From contig NZ_CP147915.1 of the NCBI RefSeq assembly GCF_039645585.1, positions 1,488,001 to 1,552,000 of the forward strand: DNA of 64,000 bases, given 5' to 3'. The notes under the pieces are model-generated. The model did not search any database, was not told the origin of the DNA, and saw only the letters and a program-made list of their open reading frames with translations. Below, in pieces: positions 2,234 through 34,751 of this stretch. The stretch comes from Sulfurimonas sp. HSL-1656 (GTDB lineage Bacteria > Campylobacterota > Campylobacteria > Campylobacterales > Sulfurimonadaceae). How positions within the stretch are numbered: the stretch's first letter is position 1; the number at the start of each line of letters is the position of its first letter. Position numbers and translations under genes: made by a program.

Positions 2234-3553
2234 TTAGTGTTCACCGTGCATGACATGCCGCAACGTATTCGCCGCTTCAAAGAGGAAGAAACAGCTCCCT
2301 TCGTAGAGCTGGTCACTCTTGAGCTGGTTGCCGAGCTCCTCGTAATTCGGGAAGCCGCGCAGCATCAATCCGGCATGGCATTTGTCATCCATATGCAATA
2401 ATCGTTCCGCATGGAAGTTGCTGATCACCAGATCGGCGTCTTTGAAGTGCGCGGCCGCGTCTTCGAGGTCCCCGACGAAGACATGCTCGGCCGTGATTTT
2501 CTCCAGCACCGGGCTGTACGTCGTTGCCACGACCGTATCGATCGTCCCGCCGACACTTTGCAGCAGTTCGCAGATGCCGATGCACGCATCCGGCTCGCCC
2601 GTGATGACGTAGCGGGCCGATCCGACCAGGAAGTGGCTGTCGAGCATAACGTCCTGCAGGCGGCCGCGCCAGCGCTTGACGAGTGGCGGGGGATCGATCT
2701 GGCGGATCTTCATCAGTTCCGCGACAAAATTGTCGTTATTTTCCAGCCCCATGAGGTGGTCGAAGTGCACGTGGCGCACGGCGGGGTTCTTCTTCTGAAG
2801 CGCCTCCGCGCCGACCTTCATGGAGTGTCCGATCGTGATGACGGTCTCCGTGTCGCCAAGCGCCACGATATCATCGATGCCGATCGATCCCGTCGCCAGC
2901 TTGCCCTGCCCCTCGCTGAGGAAACCGTCCAGGGAGGTGGAGAGGTCCGGCATTGCCAGGGTCTCGAAACCGAAATCCTCGCACATCGCCTTGATCTTCT
3001 CGATCTCGCCGGGCTGGATGCCGACATGCGGCATCAGCACGAGTTTGTTCGGCTTGCACTCCGTCGCCGGTGCGGTATGCTGGTCGATCAGTGCCTTCAC
3101 GGTGAGGGCCCAGCCGCTCTCCATGCCCCCTTCGAAGTCGGGTGTGTTGACGTAGCAGTAGGGGATCTCGATATGCATCCCCACGCCGCGCACGTCGTCG
3201 CCTTTCGTCTCCGTCAGCCCCGTCGTATGCAGCCCGATGATCTCGGGTTTCATCCCCTTGTTCTTCTTGGTGATGTTTTCGATGGCCAGCAGAATGGAGT
3301 AGTCCCCGCCGTCGAGCACCGCGGTAATGTCGCTGACCGAGGTGTTGTACATGGGAATCGGTTCATTGAAGTGCTTGGTATAGAAGACTTTGGTGTAGGA
3401 CGCGCACCCCTGCGAGGCGTGCATCAGCGGCAGGCAGTTGCGGATGCCCATAAACGCCAGGGCCGCCCCCATGGGCTGCGAATGTTTGATGGGGTTGACC
3501 TGCAGCGGTTTGTGCTCTTTCCTGTTCAGTTCGAAGTCGGCTTCGTGAGACAT
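2234..3553 (-). CDS. nifN: Nitrogenase iron-molybdenum cofactor biosynthesis protein NifN
   Basis: 439 residues, nitrogenase component-1 superfamily. The early motif NPIKHSQPMGA and the cofactor/cluster-region cysteines C40 and C50 (HASQGCASYTKVF) are diagnostic. SVSDITAVLDGGDYS and GLTETKGDDVRG follow as in NifN and NifK. NifN forms the NifE2N2 scaffold on which the FeMo-cofactor precursor is matured. It heads the nifN-nifX-DUF269-nifF-nifW-nifZ series. Unusually it is not adjacent to nifE, which lies about 1.9 kb upstream with yceI-tetR and a small gene between. I found no GG-N10-GC sigma-54 signature in the gap 3554-3690, so its promoter is unclear. Confidence 0.92.
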   Translation of the reverse strand: MSHEADFELNRKEHKPLQVNPIKHSQPMGAALAFMGIRNCLPLMHASQGCASYTKVFYTKHFNEPIPMYNTSVSDITAVLDGGDYSILLAIENITKKNKGMKPEIIGLHTTGLTETKGDDVRGVGMHIEIPYCYVNTPDFEGGMESGWALTVKALIDQHTAPATECKPNKLVLMPHVGIQPGEIEKIKAMCEDFGFETLAMPDLSTSLDGFLSEGQGKLATGSIGIDDIVALGDTETVITIGHSMKVGAEALQKKNPAVRHVHFDHLMGLENNDNFVAELMKIRQIDPPPLVKRWRGRLQDVMLDSHFLVGSARYVITGEPDACIGICELLQSVGGTIDTVVATTYSPVLEKITAEHVFVGDLEDAAAHFKDADLVISNFHAERLLHMDDKCHAGLMLRGFPNYEELGNQLKSDQLYEGSCFFLFEAANTLRHVMHGEH

Positions 3554-5486: not shown

Positions 5487-6854
5487 CTAGCCGACTTCCC
5501 AGGGGGCCTTTGCCGAAACATTGGCGAAAACGGGGTTGGCGAAGGCGGCCTTGAGGTCCTCGGCGAGGTTGATGAGACCGTTGTAACCGCCGTAGGAAGT
5601 CTTCTTCTCCTGGTTGACGTCGATAAAGGAGATCTTCTTCTTGATCGCCGTATAGAGGCTGCGCCCCCCGGCGAGGAGGATATGGGCCCCTCTTTCGTCG
5701 ATAACCTTGGACTGCTGGGCGGCCGGTTTGTCCATCAGGACCCCGTCTTCCCCCAGATACTCGCGGGCTTTTTCAATGTCGTCCGCCGTTGACTTTTTGA
5801 TGGAGGTCGCGACGACCTCGATGCCGAGGTCCTGCAGGCCCGAGGCGATGGACCACGCCTTGTTCCCCCCGGTGTTGAGGACCGCTTTTTTGCCCTTGAA
5901 GAGACGGCGGTACGGCTCGAGCGCCAGGTCGAGTTTCGCCTCCTCCTCGTCGATGAGGCGTTCGGCCCTCTCGATCAGTTCCGGGTCGCCCAGCGCCTTG
6001 ACGATCTCGCGGATCGCAAAGGTCGTATCGCGCTTGCCGTAGAAGGAGACGGAGACCCAGGGGATATCCCACTTCTCGTTCATCTTGCGCACCAGCGTCA
6101 CGAGCGATTTCGCACAGACGATGACGTTGAGCTTGGCGCGGTGTGCCGTGCGGATATCGCCGACGCGGCCGTCTCCGCTCATGGAGGCGAGCACGCGGAT
6201 GCCGAGTTTTTCGAACATCGGCAGGTACTGCCACATGTCGCCCGTGACGTTGTAGTCGCCGATCAGGTTGATGTCGTACTTGGTCGTGAATTCGGGCTCT
6301 TTGGTCCCGATCAGGTGCTCGAGCACCGCTTCGCCCGCCAGGCGCGAACCGAGGTTCTTACCGCCGACGAAGCCCGGCGCATGCACCGGGACGACCGGCA
6401 CGCCGTGCTTCTGGCTGCCGAGTTTGCAGGTCATGTCGATGTCGTCGCCCACCAGCGCCGTGACACAGGTGGAGTAGACGAAGATCGCCTCGGGCTTGTA
6501 GTGTTCCATGACGTAGTCGATGGAGTCTTCCAGGCGCTTGTCGCCGCCGAAGATGACGTCGTTCGTCGTGATCCCCGTCGTGAAGCCCATAAAAGTATGG
6601 TTGCGCCCCTTGTAGGAGCTGAGGCTCTCCCGGGTCTCCCACGAGGCGCCGAGACAGGTCTGCGGGCCGTGCACCAGGTGGACGGCGTCCGCATAGGGAA
6701 AGAGCGAGATCTGTGCGCCGTCGAAGGCACAGCCGCCGGCCGCCATTCCCGGTTTGGGCTTGTCGCACCCCTCGCCGGGTTTTTTGTCCTTGCTGTGCGA
6801 ACAGGCACTCTCGTTCAACAGTTCTTTGATCTTTGCGCGGTTTACCATTGCCAT
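5487..6854 (-). CDS. nifE: Nitrogenase iron-molybdenum cofactor biosynthesis protein NifE
   Basis: 455 residues. NifE hallmarks: GGCAFDGAQISLFPYADAVH, HGPQTCLGASWETR, FTTGITTNDVIFGGD, VYSTCVTALVGDDI and a C-terminal GGRSLYTAIKKKISF. NifE pairs with NifN as the NifE2N2 scaffold for FeMo-cofactor assembly and is homologous to NifD. The ATG at 6854 is preferred over one 12 codons upstream because AAGAAGG lies directly before it and the upstream stretch overlaps that ribosome site. A candidate -24/-12 promoter lies about 88 bp upstream. nifE stands alone instead of forming the usual nifEN pair. Confidence 0.93.
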   Translation of the reverse strand: MAMVNRAKIKELLNESACSHSKDKKPGEGCDKPKPGMAAGGCAFDGAQISLFPYADAVHLVHGPQTCLGASWETRESLSSYKGRNHTFMGFTTGITTNDVIFGGDKRLEDSIDYVMEHYKPEAIFVYSTCVTALVGDDIDMTCKLGSQKHGVPVVPVHAPGFVGGKNLGSRLAGEAVLEHLIGTKEPEFTTKYDINLIGDYNVTGDMWQYLPMFEKLGIRVLASMSGDGRVGDIRTAHRAKLNVIVCAKSLVTLVRKMNEKWDIPWVSVSFYGKRDTTFAIREIVKALGDPELIERAERLIDEEEAKLDLALEPYRRLFKGKKAVLNTGGNKAWSIASGLQDLGIEVVATSIKKSTADDIEKAREYLGEDGVLMDKPAAQQSKVIDERGAHILLAGGRSLYTAIKKKISFIDVNQEKKTSYGGYNGLINLAEDLKAAFANPVFANVSAKAPWEVG

Positions 6855-6939
6855 AATGTCATCCTTCTTTTGGATTTTCATAGTCAGCAAAGCTGCTCAT
6901 CCGCCTGCTTTACGCTATTGATTTTTCTTGTAGGGCGAT

Positions 6940-27031: not shown

Positions 27032-27415
27032 CTATTTTTGCTGGCGTGCTGCCCTTCTGGCTGCTTTTTCCGCCGCTTTTGCAGCGCGGAACTCTTCCAT
27101 ATCCATCGCTTTTATCTCTTCGATAATTTCGACAAGCTCCTCCTCCGAAAATACGCCCGGTTTTTTGAAAACGACCGTTTTCTCCTTCATAATCACCGTT
27201 GTCGGCGTGCTTGAGATAAAGAAATGATCTGAAATACTCGTTTCCACCTGGGAGTTGAGCTTGGTGAAGGTGATCTCGGGGTATTTTTCAGACGTCTTTT
27301 CAAAGATAGGGGCGTACTGTGCACACGGAGCACAGAATTGTTGCCAGCAATCTATGGCCACGATCTCGCTGCCGTCGACGGTATTATCGTAATTCTCTTT
27401 TGTCAGTTCGAGCAT
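27032..27415 (-). CDS. Thioredoxin-fold protein with CAPC active site
   Basis: 127 residues, cytoplasmic. Active site C28-A-P-C31 in QQFCAPCAQYAP, cis-Pro segment SSTPTTVIM. CAPC replaces the canonical CGPC and should change the redox potential. After the thioredoxin fold a ~25-residue Ala/Lys/Arg-rich helical tail (EFRAAKAAEKAARRAARQQK) extends the protein. Close paralogue of the thioredoxin at 28982-29362. The rhodanese gene lies upstream on the same strand (28-bp gap) and may be cotranscribed. Confidence 0.85.
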   Translation of the reverse strand: MLELTKENYDNTVDGSEIVAIDCWQQFCAPCAQYAPIFEKTSEKYPEITFTKLNSQVETSISDHFFISSTPTTVIMKEKTVVFKKPGVFSEEELVEIIEEIKAMDMEEFRAAKAAEKAARRAARQQK

Positions 27416-27895: not shown

Positions 27896-28143
27896 GCTTC
27901 GACACGTCGAAGCGCGTCAAATCGATAGGGAGATAGCCTTGAACAATCTTTTGACACTACTATTTCTAAAAAAGTTACATAAATATTCTTCTCTATCTTT
28001 TCTTTTTACAAAGAAAAGAAACAAAAGAAAATCGTCGTTGCGCGAATCGCACGCCCTTCTCGGCTTTATGCCTTCAGGGCGGCTTTCAAAGCACGCTTAA
28101 CGACCGTTTGCCTATTGATCAATGCGCTTCGATGGATCGAAGC
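27896..28143 (+). repeat. Fold-back repeat copy 4 (left arm partly deleted)
   Basis: 248 bp. The left hairpin, central hairpins and right arm are present; most of the left arm, including the CCCGG/CCGGG hairpin, is missing. The right hairpin is GCTTCGATGGATCGAAGC. Copy 8 has a comparable left-arm loss and the same right hairpin, and both are followed by nearly the same 16-bp spacer and another copy. Confidence 0.82.
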
Positions 28144-28159
28144 TAGTAAAAGAAAGAGA

Positions 28160-28470
28160 GCTTCGACACGTCGAAGCGCATAAATAAAATAGACTCTTGG
28201 GCCTTGAGCGCGATCCTTATAAGCCATCCCGGAGGCATAAAGCCGGGAGGGATGAGCGATTCGCGAAAGGCCGCTTTTTGCGCTACTTTTTCTAAAAAAG
28301 TGGCAAAGAAGAATCCAGTTCATTCTTTTCTTTTTACCAAGAAAAGAACCAAAAGAAAATCGTCGTTGCGCGAATCGCTCGCTGCTCCCGGCTTTGTGCC
28401 TCCGCAGCGGCTTTCAAGGCACGCTTAACGACAGGTCGCCTATTGATTTATGCGCTTCGGGAACCGAAGC
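28160..28470 (+). repeat. Fold-back repeat copy 5 (full length)
   Basis: 311 bp, forward. Ends GCTTCGACACGTCGAAGC and GCTTCGGGAACCGAAGC. The central CTACTTTTTCTAAAAAAGTG hairpin lies near 28283-28303 and the second A/T hairpin near 28324-28349. A good reference copy for alignment. Confidence 0.85.
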
Positions 28471-28981: not shown

Positions 28982-29362
28982 ATGGCACCAGTAGCACTGA
29001 CAGCGGAGAACTTTGACAAAACAATAGCGGACAACGAGATCGTCATCATCGATTTCTGGGCGACATGGTGCGGGCCATGCAAGCAGTACGGCCCCATCTT
29101 TGAACGTGTCGCGGAGAACGTTTCAGACATCACCTTCGCCAAGATCAATACCGACGAGCAGCAGCAACTGGCCGCCCAGTTCCATATCCGTTCCATCCCG
29201 ACGACGGTGGTCATGAAAGACGAGATCATCGTGTTCCAGCAGGAGGGGGTTCTTTTCCACGAGAAGCTGCTGGACATCGCGGAAAAGGCGCAGGCGCTCG
29301 ATATGGACATGGTCCGCGCAAAAATTGCAGAGCAGGAAGCGGCAGCGCAGCAAGAAGGCTGA
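28982..29362 (+). CDS. Thioredoxin (CGPC) with helical C-terminal extension
   Basis: 126 residues. Active site C30-G-P-C33 in FWATWCGPCKQYGP and cis-Pro RSIPTTVVM. The tail after ~105 (DMDMVRAKIAEQEAAAQQEG) is an Ala/Gln-rich helix not found in ordinary ~105-residue thioredoxins, but similar in position to the tail of the CAPC paralogue at 27032-27415. AAGGAGA precedes the ATG. Reduces disulfides in the cytoplasm. A repeat copy begins four bases after its stop. Confidence 0.9.
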   Translation: MAPVALTAENFDKTIADNEIVIIDFWATWCGPCKQYGPIFERVAENVSDITFAKINTDEQQQLAAQFHIRSIPTTVVMKDEIIVFQQEGVLFHEKLLDIAEKAQALDMDMVRAKIAEQEAAAQQEG

Positions 29363-30734: not shown

Positions 30735-31041
30735 GCTTCGACTCGTCGAAGCGCATAAAATCAATAGACAAAGTGTCGTTAAGCGTGCCTTGAAAGCCGC
30801 TGCGGAGGCCCAAAGCCGGGAGCAGCGTGCGATTCGCGCAACGACGATTTTCTTTGGTTTCGTTTCTTTGTAAAAAGAAAGGAAAAGGAAGAACTCTTTG
30901 CCACTTTTTTAGAAAAAGTAGCGCAAAAAGCGGCCTTTCGCGAATCGCTCGCCCTTCCCGGCTTTATGCCTCCAGGGCGGCTTACAAAGAGCGCTCAAGG
31001 CCAACTTCCAATTTGATTGAATGCGCTTCGATTCCCGAAGC
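30735..31041 (-). repeat. Fold-back repeat copy 7, core inverted
   Basis: 307 bp with the core in reverse orientation, as in copy 3. Plus-strand ends: GCTTCGACTCGTCGAAGC on the left and GCTTCGATTCCCGAAGC on the right. The right end reads as the reverse complement of the usual right hairpin. It lies between the transglutaminase start and clpS. The 186 bp before it (30549-30734) contain no gene I can see. Confidence 0.82.
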
Positions 31042-31094: not shown

Positions 31095-31388
31095 ATGTCA
31101 ACACAACTCGAAAGCAAGACCGAACTCGCCACCAGCGAACCGAAAATGTTCGCCGTTTTCATGCTCAATGACGACTATACGACCTGGGAGTTCTGCATCA
31201 AGATCATCAACACCGTCTTCCACAAAACCATTGCGGAAGCGGACGCCATCACCCATGACATCCACACCAAGGGCAAGGGACTGTGCGGCATCTACACCTA
31301 CGAGATCGCAGAGACAAAGGCTTTCATGGTTCGGGAGCAGGCCCGCAAAGAGGGCTTCCCCATGCGCTGCTCGGTTGAAGAGCAGTAA
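31095..31388 (+). CDS. clpS: ATP-dependent Clp protease adaptor ClpS
   Basis: 97 residues. ClpS signature MLNDDYTTWEFCIKII and H--D-H-KGKGLCGIYTYEIAETKAFMV, with the N-degron pocket residues (N, D, D) and M/V positions in place. It delivers N-degron substrates to ClpA. clpA is not adjacent: an AT-rich island follows on the opposite strand. The N-terminal ~17 residues are the flexible extension. No strong ribosome site is visible. Confidence 0.92.
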   Translation: MSTQLESKTELATSEPKMFAVFMLNDDYTTWEFCIKIINTVFHKTIAEADAITHDIHTKGKGLCGIYTYEIAETKAFMVREQARKEGFPMRCSVEEQ

Positions 31389-31502
31389 CGACACACAATA
31401 CAATTCCAAAATGAATATCTAGGAAAATATTTACATTGTTTGAAAAAAATACAAGAACTAATTCTTTCTATCTTTTAGTCAATCTCGGTAATGACCTCGA
31501 AA

Positions 31503-32813
31503 TCACTTAAGGCCATCAAAATAATTTTGAAGGGTATCACACCATCTTTTTATATAGTCAATACTTACTTTATTCGTATTTACAAGATATGACTTATCTT
31601 TGTACGTATCATATGTCTGTCTTAAAGATTCTATGATCTCTCTGACATTTTGATTGGGTATTTCGTCGAACTCTTTTACTTTACACTCTAAATAATGGCG
31701 GATACAATTATTTCTGCTTAACTCAGTCATTTTATCTGGATCTTTATCATGTAAATATACTATAAACTTTTCTTCTATTTTATCTGTGTCAATATTTTTT
31801 TTGCATACTTTGCAATTGCATATTTTTTCGTAAAATTCTTCTTTTGTTTTTAGTTTATGATTCTTAAGAATGTTGATCATATCAAATGGATTGATTTTCT
31901 GTTTTATTGTGGGAAGATAATATTTATGTGTAGGTTGCGATCCAATAGGATTCAAGCTTCTATGCTCACCATATACTAGATTATGGCAAACTCCGTCTAA
32001 TCCAATATGATATAAAAGCTGTGAAAAATACCCTCCATATAATGAAATAATTTCTTTTTGAGGATTCCGCTCTTTGTAGTGATGTACTAATTTGATCAAT
32101 GACTCTATTTCTTTTCCACTTACGTTTTGTTCATTAAAGTCATTCACCCAAAAGACAAGACCATCAGATTTTGAATATACATCAAGAATCTTTCTTATTA
32201 ATGAATCATTTAAAAGCACTTCTTTAGTAATTAGAAGTACTGCATATATACTTTTGTTATATATGTCTTTTTGTAGAAGACTCTGTTTTATGAAGTCTTC
32301 ATTGACGCCTAGCCAAAAATCTATATTATCTTTTAGTAAAAAATATGGAGCAATAAGGAATTTTGGTGTTTTATTTTTTTTGCTTCGTCTTACTAAAATT
32401 TTTAAATCGTCTTCTAAGTTGTCGAATAAGTAATTTTCTTGGAAACTTAGAACACTGTGGACAAAATTATTTTCTTTTAAAACATTGATATTTGTAGGAT
32501 TTATGGGATTTTTATTATCAAGCAAATTTGAGGGTAACTTATATTCAGAAAGTAAACTTTGGTAAGTCTGTCTCACCCCTTTGCCATCTTTTTTTGCCAA
32601 GTACTCGATGTCCATTTGAAAAGCATATGTTCTTGGATCAATTATGTATTCTTTCTCATGCAAGTCAACATGCAATAGTTCTGCATTATCTCTTGATTGG
32701 TGGCAAATAGTATTGGCATTAAATACTATAGTGGATGCATATTTCTGATACTCTTGAAAATATTTTTTATCAGTCGAAGTTCCATATCTTAATAAATGCT
32801 GGAGAGTACTCAT
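31503..32813 (-). CDS. Putative TIM-barrel protein with CxCxxC site, distant TGT-like
   Basis: 436 residues, the last gene of the AT-rich operon, starting 1 bp after the preceding stop with AAGGAAC upstream. Alternating strand-helix pattern: FLIAPYFLL, YAVLLITKEVLL, DGLVFWVND, EIISLYGGYFSQLLYHIGLDGVCHNLVYGEHRSL. It also has C332-N-C334-K-V-C337 and a later H373 in NNCIRHYLEC. A TIM barrel with a CxCxxC...H zinc site near the end resembles tRNA-guanine transglycosylases and the DNA-modifying relative DpdA. The Cys-His spacing is longer than usual, and no clear catalytic Asp pair could be assigned (D273 in GLDG is a candidate). The relationship is a hypothesis. Confidence 0.72.
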   Translation of the reverse strand: MSTLQHLLRYGTSTDKKYFQEYQKYASTIVFNANTICHQSRDNAELLHVDLHEKEYIIDPRTYAFQMDIEYLAKKDGKGVRQTYQSLLSEYKLPSNLLDNKNPINPTNINVLKENNFVHSVLSFQENYLFDNLEDDLKILVRRSKKNKTPKFLIAPYFLLKDNIDFWLGVNEDFIKQSLLQKDIYNKSIYAVLLITKEVLLNDSLIRKILDVYSKSDGLVFWVNDFNEQNVSGKEIESLIKLVHHYKERNPQKEIISLYGGYFSQLLYHIGLDGVCHNLVYGEHRSLNPIGSQPTHKYYLPTIKQKINPFDMINILKNHKLKTKEEFYEKICNCKVCKKNIDTDKIEEKFIVYLHDKDPDKMTELSRNNCIRHYLECKVKEFDEIPNQNVREIIESLRQTYDTYKDKSYLVNTNKVSIDYIKRWCDTLQNYFDGLK

Positions 32814-32814
32814 T

Positions 32815-33216
32815 CTATAAGTTCCTTTCTTTTTCTTCTAGTTTTTGAAATAAATAATCTCTATAAAATGGAATATGCAGATGACTTTTCTTAGGTTTTA
32901 TTATTTCCTCTAACGAATGTTTTTCATGATCATACATATATAGGCCAATACCTCTATCAGTCAAGGTCTGTAATATTTGATGACTTATATTTCTTTTCGG
33001 GATACATAAATAAGAATAATCTGAAACTATTTGATAGTCAGAAATTTGCTCAAATGCCTTTTGATAATTTTTCAATTTAAATTCAATAGCAATGAGTTTA
33101 TTGTCAGGTCTTTTTAGCACAACATCTATTGAACGAGTAAATATTTTCACTTCGCAATAAATAGAATGCTTCTTGAAAAATGGAAGAACATTTTCAACTA
33201 ATTCTTTTTCTGTCAA
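32815..33216 (-). CDS. Putative PD-(D/E)XK nuclease-fold protein, TTG start
   Basis: 133 residues; the start codon is TTG at 33216, preceded by AGGATGATC, 4 bp after the upstream stop. Core motif: RSIDVVLKR (D31), then LIAIEFKLKNYQKAFEQ with E45-F-K47 and Q57. This gives D-X(13)-E-X-K plus a downstream Gln, as in restriction-endonuclease-like folds. YSYLCIPK and GIGLYMYD fit the following strands. DNA cleavage is likely but unproven; binding to DNA without cleavage is also possible. Middle gene of the operon. Confidence 0.72.
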   Translation of the reverse strand: MTEKELVENVLPFFKKHSIYCEVKIFTRSIDVVLKRPDNKLIAIEFKLKNYQKAFEQISDYQIVSDYSYLCIPKRNISHQILQTLTDRGIGLYMYDHEKHSLEEIIKPKKSHLHIPFYRDYLFQKLEEKERNL

Positions 33217-33220
33217 TAGA

Positions 33221-33721
33221 TCATCCTAATACTTTTTCTTTTATTTTTGAGTTTTTTGTATATTCTGGATACTTTGTATATACAAGCTTTATGAGTTCAT
33301 TCAGATTCATACTATTGTATTCTTTTTTAAATGCGTCCAAAGTTTCCATTTCAAATGGATTTATTCTTTCTTTCTGAAATATCTCTTCATGCACCGTTGT
33401 AATGCCATCTTCTGTAATGCAGTATTCGGTTTCCTTTTCTACCAAATTTTCATCTTCAGAATCAGTCTCATTTTCAATCGTTATCATTCCAAATGTTTTC
33501 AAATTTTTCAAATGTTTATAAAGGTCTTTAGAAAATGGGCCATAATGATGAGCAAAAAAATCAAACAAATTTTTTTCACGAATTTGATTGATCTTATTTT
33601 GACATTCTTTTTCATAAAGAAAAATCATTTTTTGAAGCCTTGTTTTTCCTACGATTTTACCTTGTTCATCGGCATACATAATTAGGAGTAGAACAAGATC
33701 GTTGGATAATTTTTGTTGCAT
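33221..33721 (-). CDS. SocA/YwgA-like (Panacea-type) protein
   Basis: 166 residues, first gene of the AT-rich operon. KTRLQKMIFLYE at 26-37 and FFAHHYGPFSKDLYKHLKNL at 55-74 correspond to the conserved segments of the SocA-like/DUF4065 and YwgA families (K-LQK---Y ... YGP----L). A charged acidic middle and a C-terminal helix follow. Such domains occur as antitoxins or as regulatory parts of defence loci. Role here unknown; it could regulate or neutralise the nuclease-like product downstream (inference). Confidence 0.72.
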   Translation of the reverse strand: MQQKLSNDLVLLLIMYADEQGKIVGKTRLQKMIFLYEKECQNKINQIREKNLFDFFAHHYGPFSKDLYKHLKNLKTFGMITIENETDSEDENLVEKETEYCITEDGITTVHEEIFQKERINPFEMETLDAFKKEYNSMNLNELIKLVYTKYPEYTKNSKIKEKVLG

Positions 33722-33998
33722 AATTACAAACCTAATAACTTGAATTTGAAAAAGTATACTACAACTATAAATTGTATTTGTTTATTTTTAATATTTTTAC
33801 TCCTATCAACAATTGAATATGCTTCAAGCCACAATTTTTTGAGGGAATATACGCTCTCTGTGCCATTGCAACAAGCTTTCATATGGATATACAAAACAAT
33901 ACCTATTTAAAAAAATACAACATGATAAATGCCTCAAAAGCTATACTACTATAGGTAAGGAAGGCTTTTATAGAATAAAAAAAGCATCGCTAACGCCC

Positions 33999-34751
33999 AT
34001 GGAAATATCAATCGAAATGCTCACGTTCCTCTTTGCCGCATCCATCGTCGCGGGCACGATGGATACGATGGTCGGAGGCGGCGGGCTTATTACCCTGCCC
34101 TCGCTGATGCTCACTGGACTCTCACCCATCAACGCACTGGGGACAAACAAGCTGCAGGGGTGCGTCGGCACGGGGACGGCCACTTTTTTGCTGCTCAGAA
34201 AGTCCAAAATAAGATGGCGTCACATCAAGCCCCTCTTTATTGCCGCCTTTGTCGGTTCGGTCATCGGTACCGTGGCCGTGCAGTTCATGAGTCAGCATTC
34301 GCTGTCACTGGTCATCCCCGTCGTGCTCGTGGTGATCATCGGCTACTTTCTGCTCTACAACCCAAGCAGAACAAAAAACTTCAGCATCAAGGTGGGTGCG
34401 AAAAAGTTCACCTGGCTCGTCGTGCCAGGCATTGGCTTTTACGACGGCATGTTCGGCCCCGGGACGGGCTCGTTCTTTGGCTTTGCGAACGTGCTTCTTC
34501 GGCGCGCGAAACTGGTGGCGGCTACCGCCACGGCCAAGCCGCTCAACTTCGCCACCAACGTTTCATCCCTCTTGGTCTTCATCCTCTTCGGCAACGTCGT
34601 CTGGCACGTGGGCCTCGTGATGATGCTGGGCCAGGCCATCGGCGCCTGGCTGGGGGTGCATCTGCTTTACAAGATCAACCCGCAGTACCTGCGTGCCTTT
34701 GTCATAACCATCTGTCTGCTGATGCTGGCCAAATATTTAGCATCATCCTAA
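33999..34751 (+). CDS. TSUP/TauE-SafE family membrane transporter
   Basis: 250 residues, about eight hydrophobic segments. Family signs: VAGTMDTMVGGGGLITLPSLM and NALGTNKLQG in the first half; the mirrored GFYDGMFGPGTGSFFGF and ATAKPLNFATNV in the second half. TSUP proteins export sulfite or organosulfonates or move other sulfur compounds across the inner membrane. GC content returns to the local norm here. Monocistronic, 148 bp before cowN. Confidence 0.88.
   Translation: MEISIEMLTFLFAASIVAGTMDTMVGGGGLITLPSLMLTGLSPINALGTNKLQGCVGTGTATFLLLRKSKIRWRHIKPLFIAAFVGSVIGTVAVQFMSQHSLSLVIPVVLVVIIGYFLLYNPSRTKNFSIKVGAKKFTWLVVPGIGFYDGMFGPGTGSFFGFANVLLRRAKLVAATATAKPLNFATNVSSLLVFILFGNVVWHVGLVMMLGQAIGAWLGVHLLYKINPQYLRAFVITICLLMLAKYLASS

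Follow-up and report, generated by a model that had tools for sequence, protein, structure and literature searches.

The 64,000-nucleotide stretch of DNA analyzed here, called the window throughout, contains an AT-rich insert of 2,603 bp (31396..33998, assigned to neither strand) flanked by a clpS-like gene (31095..31388, plus strand) at the left border of a variable site and a TSUP-like transporter gene (33999..34751, plus strand) at its right border, both named by sequence reading. GC content was approximately 28% (0.27 to 0.30) over about 31.4 to 33.9 kb, compared with 57% for the whole window and 0.5 to 0.6 outside the block. Three co-directional genes separated by gaps of 4 and 1 bp form an operon on the minus strand (33721-31503): gene 1 (33221..33721) for a 166-amino-acid SocA/Panacea (DUF4065) antitoxin-like protein, gene 2 (32815..33216) with a TTG start for a 133-amino-acid, sce7726-like protein predicted to have the PD-(D/E)XK nuclease fold, and gene 3 (31503..32813) for a 436-amino-acid predicted TIM-barrel protein with a C-terminal CxCxxC...H like that of tRNA-guanine transglycosylases (TGTs). 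An initial annotation, made from the sequence alone, had described the abrupt composition change, the tight operon with its single TTG start, the lack of mobile-element genes, and characteristic motifs in each product, and all were found as quoted. No mobile-element genes were present within the AT-rich block, and no convincing or above-chance terminal repeats were found at its edges. A possible operon promoter, TTAAAA-16-TATAGT (33764..33791, minus strand), was no better than chance, as the consensus search gave 16 sites where 16.5 were expected. We conclude that the AT-rich block was inserted cleanly, with clpS on one side and the TSUP transporter gene on the other.

To compare the same site across the genus, the flanking genes were located in other genomes, and both were kept in three sister genomes at about 90% identity. 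In G378, the flanks were separated by 38 bp, in place of the 2,603 bp of the window, and the site was empty. In G288, the site held 2.8 kb encoding a D12 methyltransferase and a partner, a pair that matched PD-Lambda-5_B (E 3e-118) and PD-Lambda-5_A (E 7e-73). In G264, the site held 4.6 kb encoding Multi_ubiq-like, DUF6791-ThiF, DUF6527, and RmrA-like HTH-IrrE proteins. These differing contents of the clpS-TSUP gap in the genus were recorded at loci L021:3618-5872 and L022:1580-5612. The idea that the operon sits in a plastic region was therefore borne out, and we conclude that the trio occupies a small exchange site for defense-type genes.

Other features of the window were noted in passing. 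A dispersed intergenic repeat of ~160 bases lies at 30860-31020 and at many further intergenic places (28-30 kb and 36.8-38.2 kb). The repeat had 36 matches in the 2.56-Mb genome, clustered at ~1.511-1.527 Mb (23-39 kb of the window) and near 1.11-1.14, 1.69, 2.24-2.25, and 2.32-2.33 Mb; it also occurs in sister genomes and yields spurious open reading frames, such as 28066-28323. Two similar thioredoxin-like genes (27032-27415 and 28982-29362) are close together in the repeat-rich stretch. By eye only, the open reading frames at 2234-3553 and 5487-6890 resemble NifN/NifE (nitrogenase cofactor scaffold), and one near them, at 720-1238, resembles flavodoxin.

The product of gene 1 had been read as SocA/YwgA-like, and profile searches agreed: Pfam SocA_Panacea (PF13274) matched with 35.2 bits (E 2.6e-8), above the curated cutoff of 25.7, and the PADLOC profile PDC-M19A matched over part of the model (E 2e-16). 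The protein carries the motifs G-K-T-R-L-Q-K and H-H-Y-G-P-F-S. Panacea is a broad, hyperpromiscuous antitoxin domain found in two- and three-gene toxin-antitoxin (TA)-like loci, and the study that described it names WP_049938427.1, the Panacea protein of this same trio on Haloarcula plasmid pNG400, as a haloarchaeal PanA (PMC8832971).

The fold proposed for gene 2 was likewise supported by structure prediction. An AF2 model (pLDDT 90.7) showed an alpha-beta-beta-beta-alpha-beta core in the order found in PD-(D/E)XK nucleases, and Foldseek matched it to 3dnx, SfsA, XisH, and NucS/EndoMS (E 4e-7 to 6e-4). The motif D31-x13-E45-x-K47 is followed by Q57, and E-x-K-x9-Q was present downstream of a hydrophobic-Asp motif in all 10 nuclease relatives, three of which, each linked to a kinase, carry a long insertion between the two elements. 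The NCBIfam family sce7726 (NF033832) matched gene 2 with 26.4 bits (E 5.7e-6) but did not reach its cutoff of 70 bits, and gene 2 appears to be related to that family while falling outside its curated limits. We infer that gene 2 encodes an active nuclease. As Beta_protein and sce7725 proteins share with the barrel protein an sce7726-like partner, homology of the barrel protein to either family was considered and rejected, with an hhalign probability under 1%. Elsewhere, an sce7725 family gene was seen between sce7726-like and HEPN/RES-domain genes in one operon (L029:484-3307), and Beta_protein (PF14350) genes were seen in two genomes (L032:926-2508 and L033:943-2541) with genes for an IrrE-type metallopeptidase-like protein and a small membrane protein directly upstream.

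Searches of Pfam, NCBIfam, PADLOC, and PHROGs did not yield a credible family for gene 3. Neither Pfam TGT (PF01702) nor the PADLOC profiles, including DpdA, matched at E values up to 1, and a sequence search of the PDB returned nothing credible and no relevant chain. An AF2 model built from four of eight sequences (pLDDT 69.8, pTM 0.77) had its strands arranged as in a TIM barrel, with very low confidence at residues 281-315. The best Foldseek E value came from dehydroquinate dehydratases (3.6e-4), in alignments limited to the barrel, while TGTs aligned over the whole length (~460 columns, probability 1.00) with an E value of 1.2e-3, which is to be read against a model pLDDT of 69.8 and similar values for other TIM barrels. 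TM-scores with TGTs ranged from 0.41 to 0.50, and when normalized to the query they were 0.41 to 0.44, the highest in the list, versus 0.24 to 0.34 for dehydratases and transaldolases. Foldseek also recovered Cap10 of type IV CBASS (9ntn, E 8.6e-3). In profile-profile comparison with 20 TGTs, the score exceeded those of all 200 column shuffles (P 0.006), and the best stretch was the CxCxxC region. When the comparison was extended to ten sequences, one shuffle in 150 scored better and the signal came from the Cys motif alone, such that TGT homology is treated as a lead. The initial reading of this product as TGT-like thus held in part: a TIM barrel was predicted and TGTs aligned with it over its whole length, but Pfam and PADLOC gave no match and the profile support was weak.

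A few weaker candidates for gene 3 were set aside. The DS-41 profile (DefensePredictor, NF053860) gave one weak match to a Haloarcula protein at E 0.031, a level at which the profile is unspecific, and the match was repeated neither in that protein's relative nor in the window protein. Weak matches of the 436-amino-acid query to a lytic-transglycosylase-like protein (L003), an aminotransferase-like protein (L006), and a signaling protein (L028) were false positives.

To ask which TGT features the barrel family retains, residues were compared across its members. The cysteines of gene 3 lie in CNCKVC at residues 332-337, with H373 beyond them. CxCxxC was present in the proteins of the window, UBA4036, three Haloarcula plasmids, G204, and Priestia, with variable spacing to the His (26 in TGT), and the cysteines were missing from the barrel proteins of Arthrobacter, Aminicenantes, and G070; thus, zinc binding is not universal in the family. 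When positions were mapped by strand order, an invariant D59-P60 fell where TGT has DSGG[FY]Q, and a GLDG motif (271-274) fell where TGT has GVDM ahead of FDC. By the same mapping, the position of the TGT nucleophilic Asp (MFDC) is occupied by C, I, A, V, S, or T, and of the base-contacting residues only the strand-3 Asp (D59) seems to be kept. The family thus seems to lack a conserved nucleophilic Asp, which makes classical base exchange, as in dpd-like modification, unlikely. Cap10 is a TGT-family protein remodeled to bind deazaguanylated CdnD in type IV CBASS (PMC11996544), and our analysis suggests that gene 3 has a TGT-like fold with an altered active site, for which a binding role like that of Cap10 is more likely than base exchange.

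A search for the same gene order, proposed in the initial annotation, found the trio in five other, distant genomes or plasmids, each with the Panacea gene in the identical position, and the arrangement is therefore not confined to the window. In Epsilonproteobacteria bacterium UBA4036, which belongs to the same taxonomic order as the window genome, tnsA lies 12 bp beyond the end of the barrel gene, genes named by sequence reading as TnsB-, TnsC-, and TniQ-like follow on the same strand, and a dprA-like gene adjoins. In a metagenome-assembled Aminicenantes genome, the barrel protein has a C-terminal SIR2_2 domain in place of the cysteine region. The remaining trios are on Haloarcula plasmids: pNG400, pHsi540, where a SIR2 gene is adjacent, and a plasmid of JP-L23, where an N-6 DNA methylase gene is adjacent.

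The nuclease and barrel genes also occurred together without Panacea. On Arthrobacter plasmid pSI-1, the pair lies behind a gene for a probable membrane protein, and in G204 and on a Priestia plasmid a Ser/Thr kinase domain is fused to the barrel protein. A four-gene version in G070 (L061:4002-7467) encodes a nuclease with an HTH-like insertion, a stand-alone Ser/Thr kinase, a barrel protein, and a convergent PP2C, with an integrase-like gene nearby, an arrangement suggesting that phosphorylation controls this same core. The G070 nuclease matched at E 1.5e-6. Homology of the G070 barrel protein is weak (hmmsearch E 0.024 at a nominal database size of 100,000), and its assignment depends chiefly on the order of the genes, the DP motif, and the neighboring nuclease. 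Panacea was missing from 4 of the 10 loci and thus is not an obligatory part of the mechanism. Across the ten loci, the similarity matrices of nuclease and barrel were correlated (Spearman 0.72, permutation p 2e-4), indicating that the pair has traveled together; the Panacea matrix correlated less strongly across six loci (0.61 and 0.52, p 0.01 and 0.03). Moreover, among 399 genomes of the order, in which the module is rare (3 to 4 genomes), a strong nuclease hit occurred in three, each of which has the barrel gene as well. No relative of the barrel protein was found in the viral contigs scanned or in phage records, and thus there is no sign of counter-use by phages. We conclude that the nuclease-barrel pair is a stable core and that Panacea is replaceable by a Ser/Thr kinase, either fused or separate with a PP2C, or by a membrane protein.

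The genomic context strongly suggests a defense function. In addition to the defense genes at the same site in sister species, the neighbors and fusions found elsewhere (SIR2, PD-T4-6-like kinase, N-6 DNA methylase, Tn7-like genes, and PP2C) were counted in its favor, and the presence of the trio in distantly related bacteria and haloarchaea together with the sister-species genes indicates that it is probably a new virus defense system. Of the initial proposal of an uncharacterized defense or nucleic acid modification system, the first part was thus strengthened, whereas dpd-like base modification is unlikely. We favor, with somewhat better than even confidence, the view that the block is an antiphage module spread by horizontal transfer, its nuclease and remodeled TGT-like sensor being held under the control of Panacea as an antitoxin. 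The core would be the PD-(D/E)XK nuclease acting together with the TIM-barrel protein, the latter either remodeled from, or converged on, the TGT fold. The two proteins may form a complex in which the barrel serves as the sensor or targeting subunit, binding a ligand tied to infection (a nucleobase, a nucleotide, or a modified nucleic acid) and then directing or activating the nuclease, for which DNA is the presumed substrate. Panacea would keep the pair off until infection removed it, a role as a lock proposed by analogy with the action of Panacea on many toxins (PMC8832971). At other loci, control may instead lie with a membrane protein or with a Ser/Thr kinase, the latter sometimes accompanied by PP2C, and some loci may have added an NAD-depleting effector of the SIR2 NADase type.

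One alternative is that the trio is a TA addiction module without a dedicated defense role, in which Panacea neutralizes the nuclease (or else the barrel) and postsegregational killing maintains the module. The hyperpromiscuity of Panacea in TA-like loci, the naming of a member of this very trio as PanA, and the location of several relatives on plasmids are consistent with addiction. Nonetheless, the position of Panacea can be held by a kinase or a membrane protein, SIR2 effectors are appended in some loci, and known defense systems occupy the same chromosomal site in sister species; we therefore regard addiction alone as rather unlikely. The two roles are compatible and do not exclude one another.

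Two further alternatives concern 7-deazaguanine, and each seems improbable. First, the barrel protein could act like DpdA, exchanging guanine for 7-deazaguanine in host DNA or tRNA while the nuclease cuts unmodified DNA. The TGT-like fold and CxCxxC...H of gene 3 fit such a scheme, and TGTs are used by dpd (PMC6884629) and by BREX-related BRC systems (PMC12839542), but the profile searches and the variable residue at the mapped nucleophile position do not, substrate-binding residues are not kept, and some members have lost the cysteines. Moreover, the block lacks preQ0 pathway and helicase genes, and the host encodes a separate canonical Tgt. Second, and with similarly little likelihood, the module could be a type IV-like restriction system that depends on modification, in which 7-deazaguanine in phage DNA is recognized by the barrel protein, which then licenses the nuclease. 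Remodeling of Cap10 for a deazaguanine-linked partner provides a precedent, and the occurrence of the module in Campylobacterota and Haloarcula parallels the hosts of deazaguanine phages, as dADG is found in Campylobacter phages and dPreQ1 in HVTV-1, a halovirus that infects H. vallismortis (PMC6884629). That host match involves very few cases, however, the module is also present in Priestia, Arthrobacter, and Aminicenantes, and the apparent retention of D59 alone among base-contacting residues argues against it. We give only a slim chance to the bolder proposal of an as yet undescribed trans-domain defense system comprising a TGT-fold protein, its catalytic machinery turned into a sensor of phage nucleic acid that carries 7-deazaguanine or a similar modification, a PD-(D/E)XK nuclease partner that destroys what is sensed, and a Panacea or kinase safety lock. 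Finally, an accessory role in mobile elements rather than defense, such as Tn7-like target choice or regulation, is suggested by the tns-like genes of UBA4036 but is very improbable, as no tns genes were seen at other loci and the window site has neither mobile-element genes nor clear terminal repeats.

Were the antiphage module protective against phage, it would be a compact system common to bacteria and archaea and unnamed in the family libraries used; for genes 2 and 3, PADLOC has no matching profile. It would provide a further context for TGT-fold proteins in immunity, alongside DpdA, Cap10, and BRC. The third component, which can be Panacea, a kinase with PP2C, or a membrane protein, would make restraint of the nuclease testable by module swaps. 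If deazaguanine sensing were true, the module would be a type IV-like countermeasure against phages whose DNA is masked by deazaguanines. A search of article texts, few of them from subscription journals or preprint servers, found no description of the trio or pair, and an earlier description or listing is possible. The folds of all three proteins are already known, and the trio ties Panacea to a defense-type nuclease pair.

The module resembles several known systems in part. Like type IV CBASS with Cap10 (PMC11996544), it places a protein of TGT-like fold in a probable defense operon, and 9ntn was found by Foldseek, but the block in the window encodes neither a QueC-like Cap9 nor a CD-NTase and no relevant PDB chain matched by sequence. 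Like the Dpd 7-deazaguanine DNA modification system with DpdA, it combines a protein of TGT-like fold with nucleic acid enzymes in one locus, but it shows no DpdA profile match, no apparent conservation of the catalytic Asp, and no further dpd genes, the block consisting of three genes. The pairs sce7725/sce7726 and Beta_protein (PF14350)/sce7726-like similarly join an sce7726-like nuclease to a partner of 300 to 430 amino acids, but the barrel protein of the window has no detectable profile similarity to either partner. In relatives, the barrel protein carries a fused kinase domain of the kind found in PD-T4-6 and MADS Mad6 (by PADLOC in G204 and by a Pfam kinase family in Priestia), whereas the window copy has Panacea instead of a kinase. 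As in PanA/PanT TA systems (Kurata et al. 2022, PMC8832971), a DUF4065/Panacea gene comes first in a tight operon with partners of unrelated fold, but here the partner is a conserved pair of nuclease and TGT-like barrel, and Panacea itself can be replaced by a kinase or a membrane protein. We regard the trio as a putative variant of Panacea/TGT-type defense modules.
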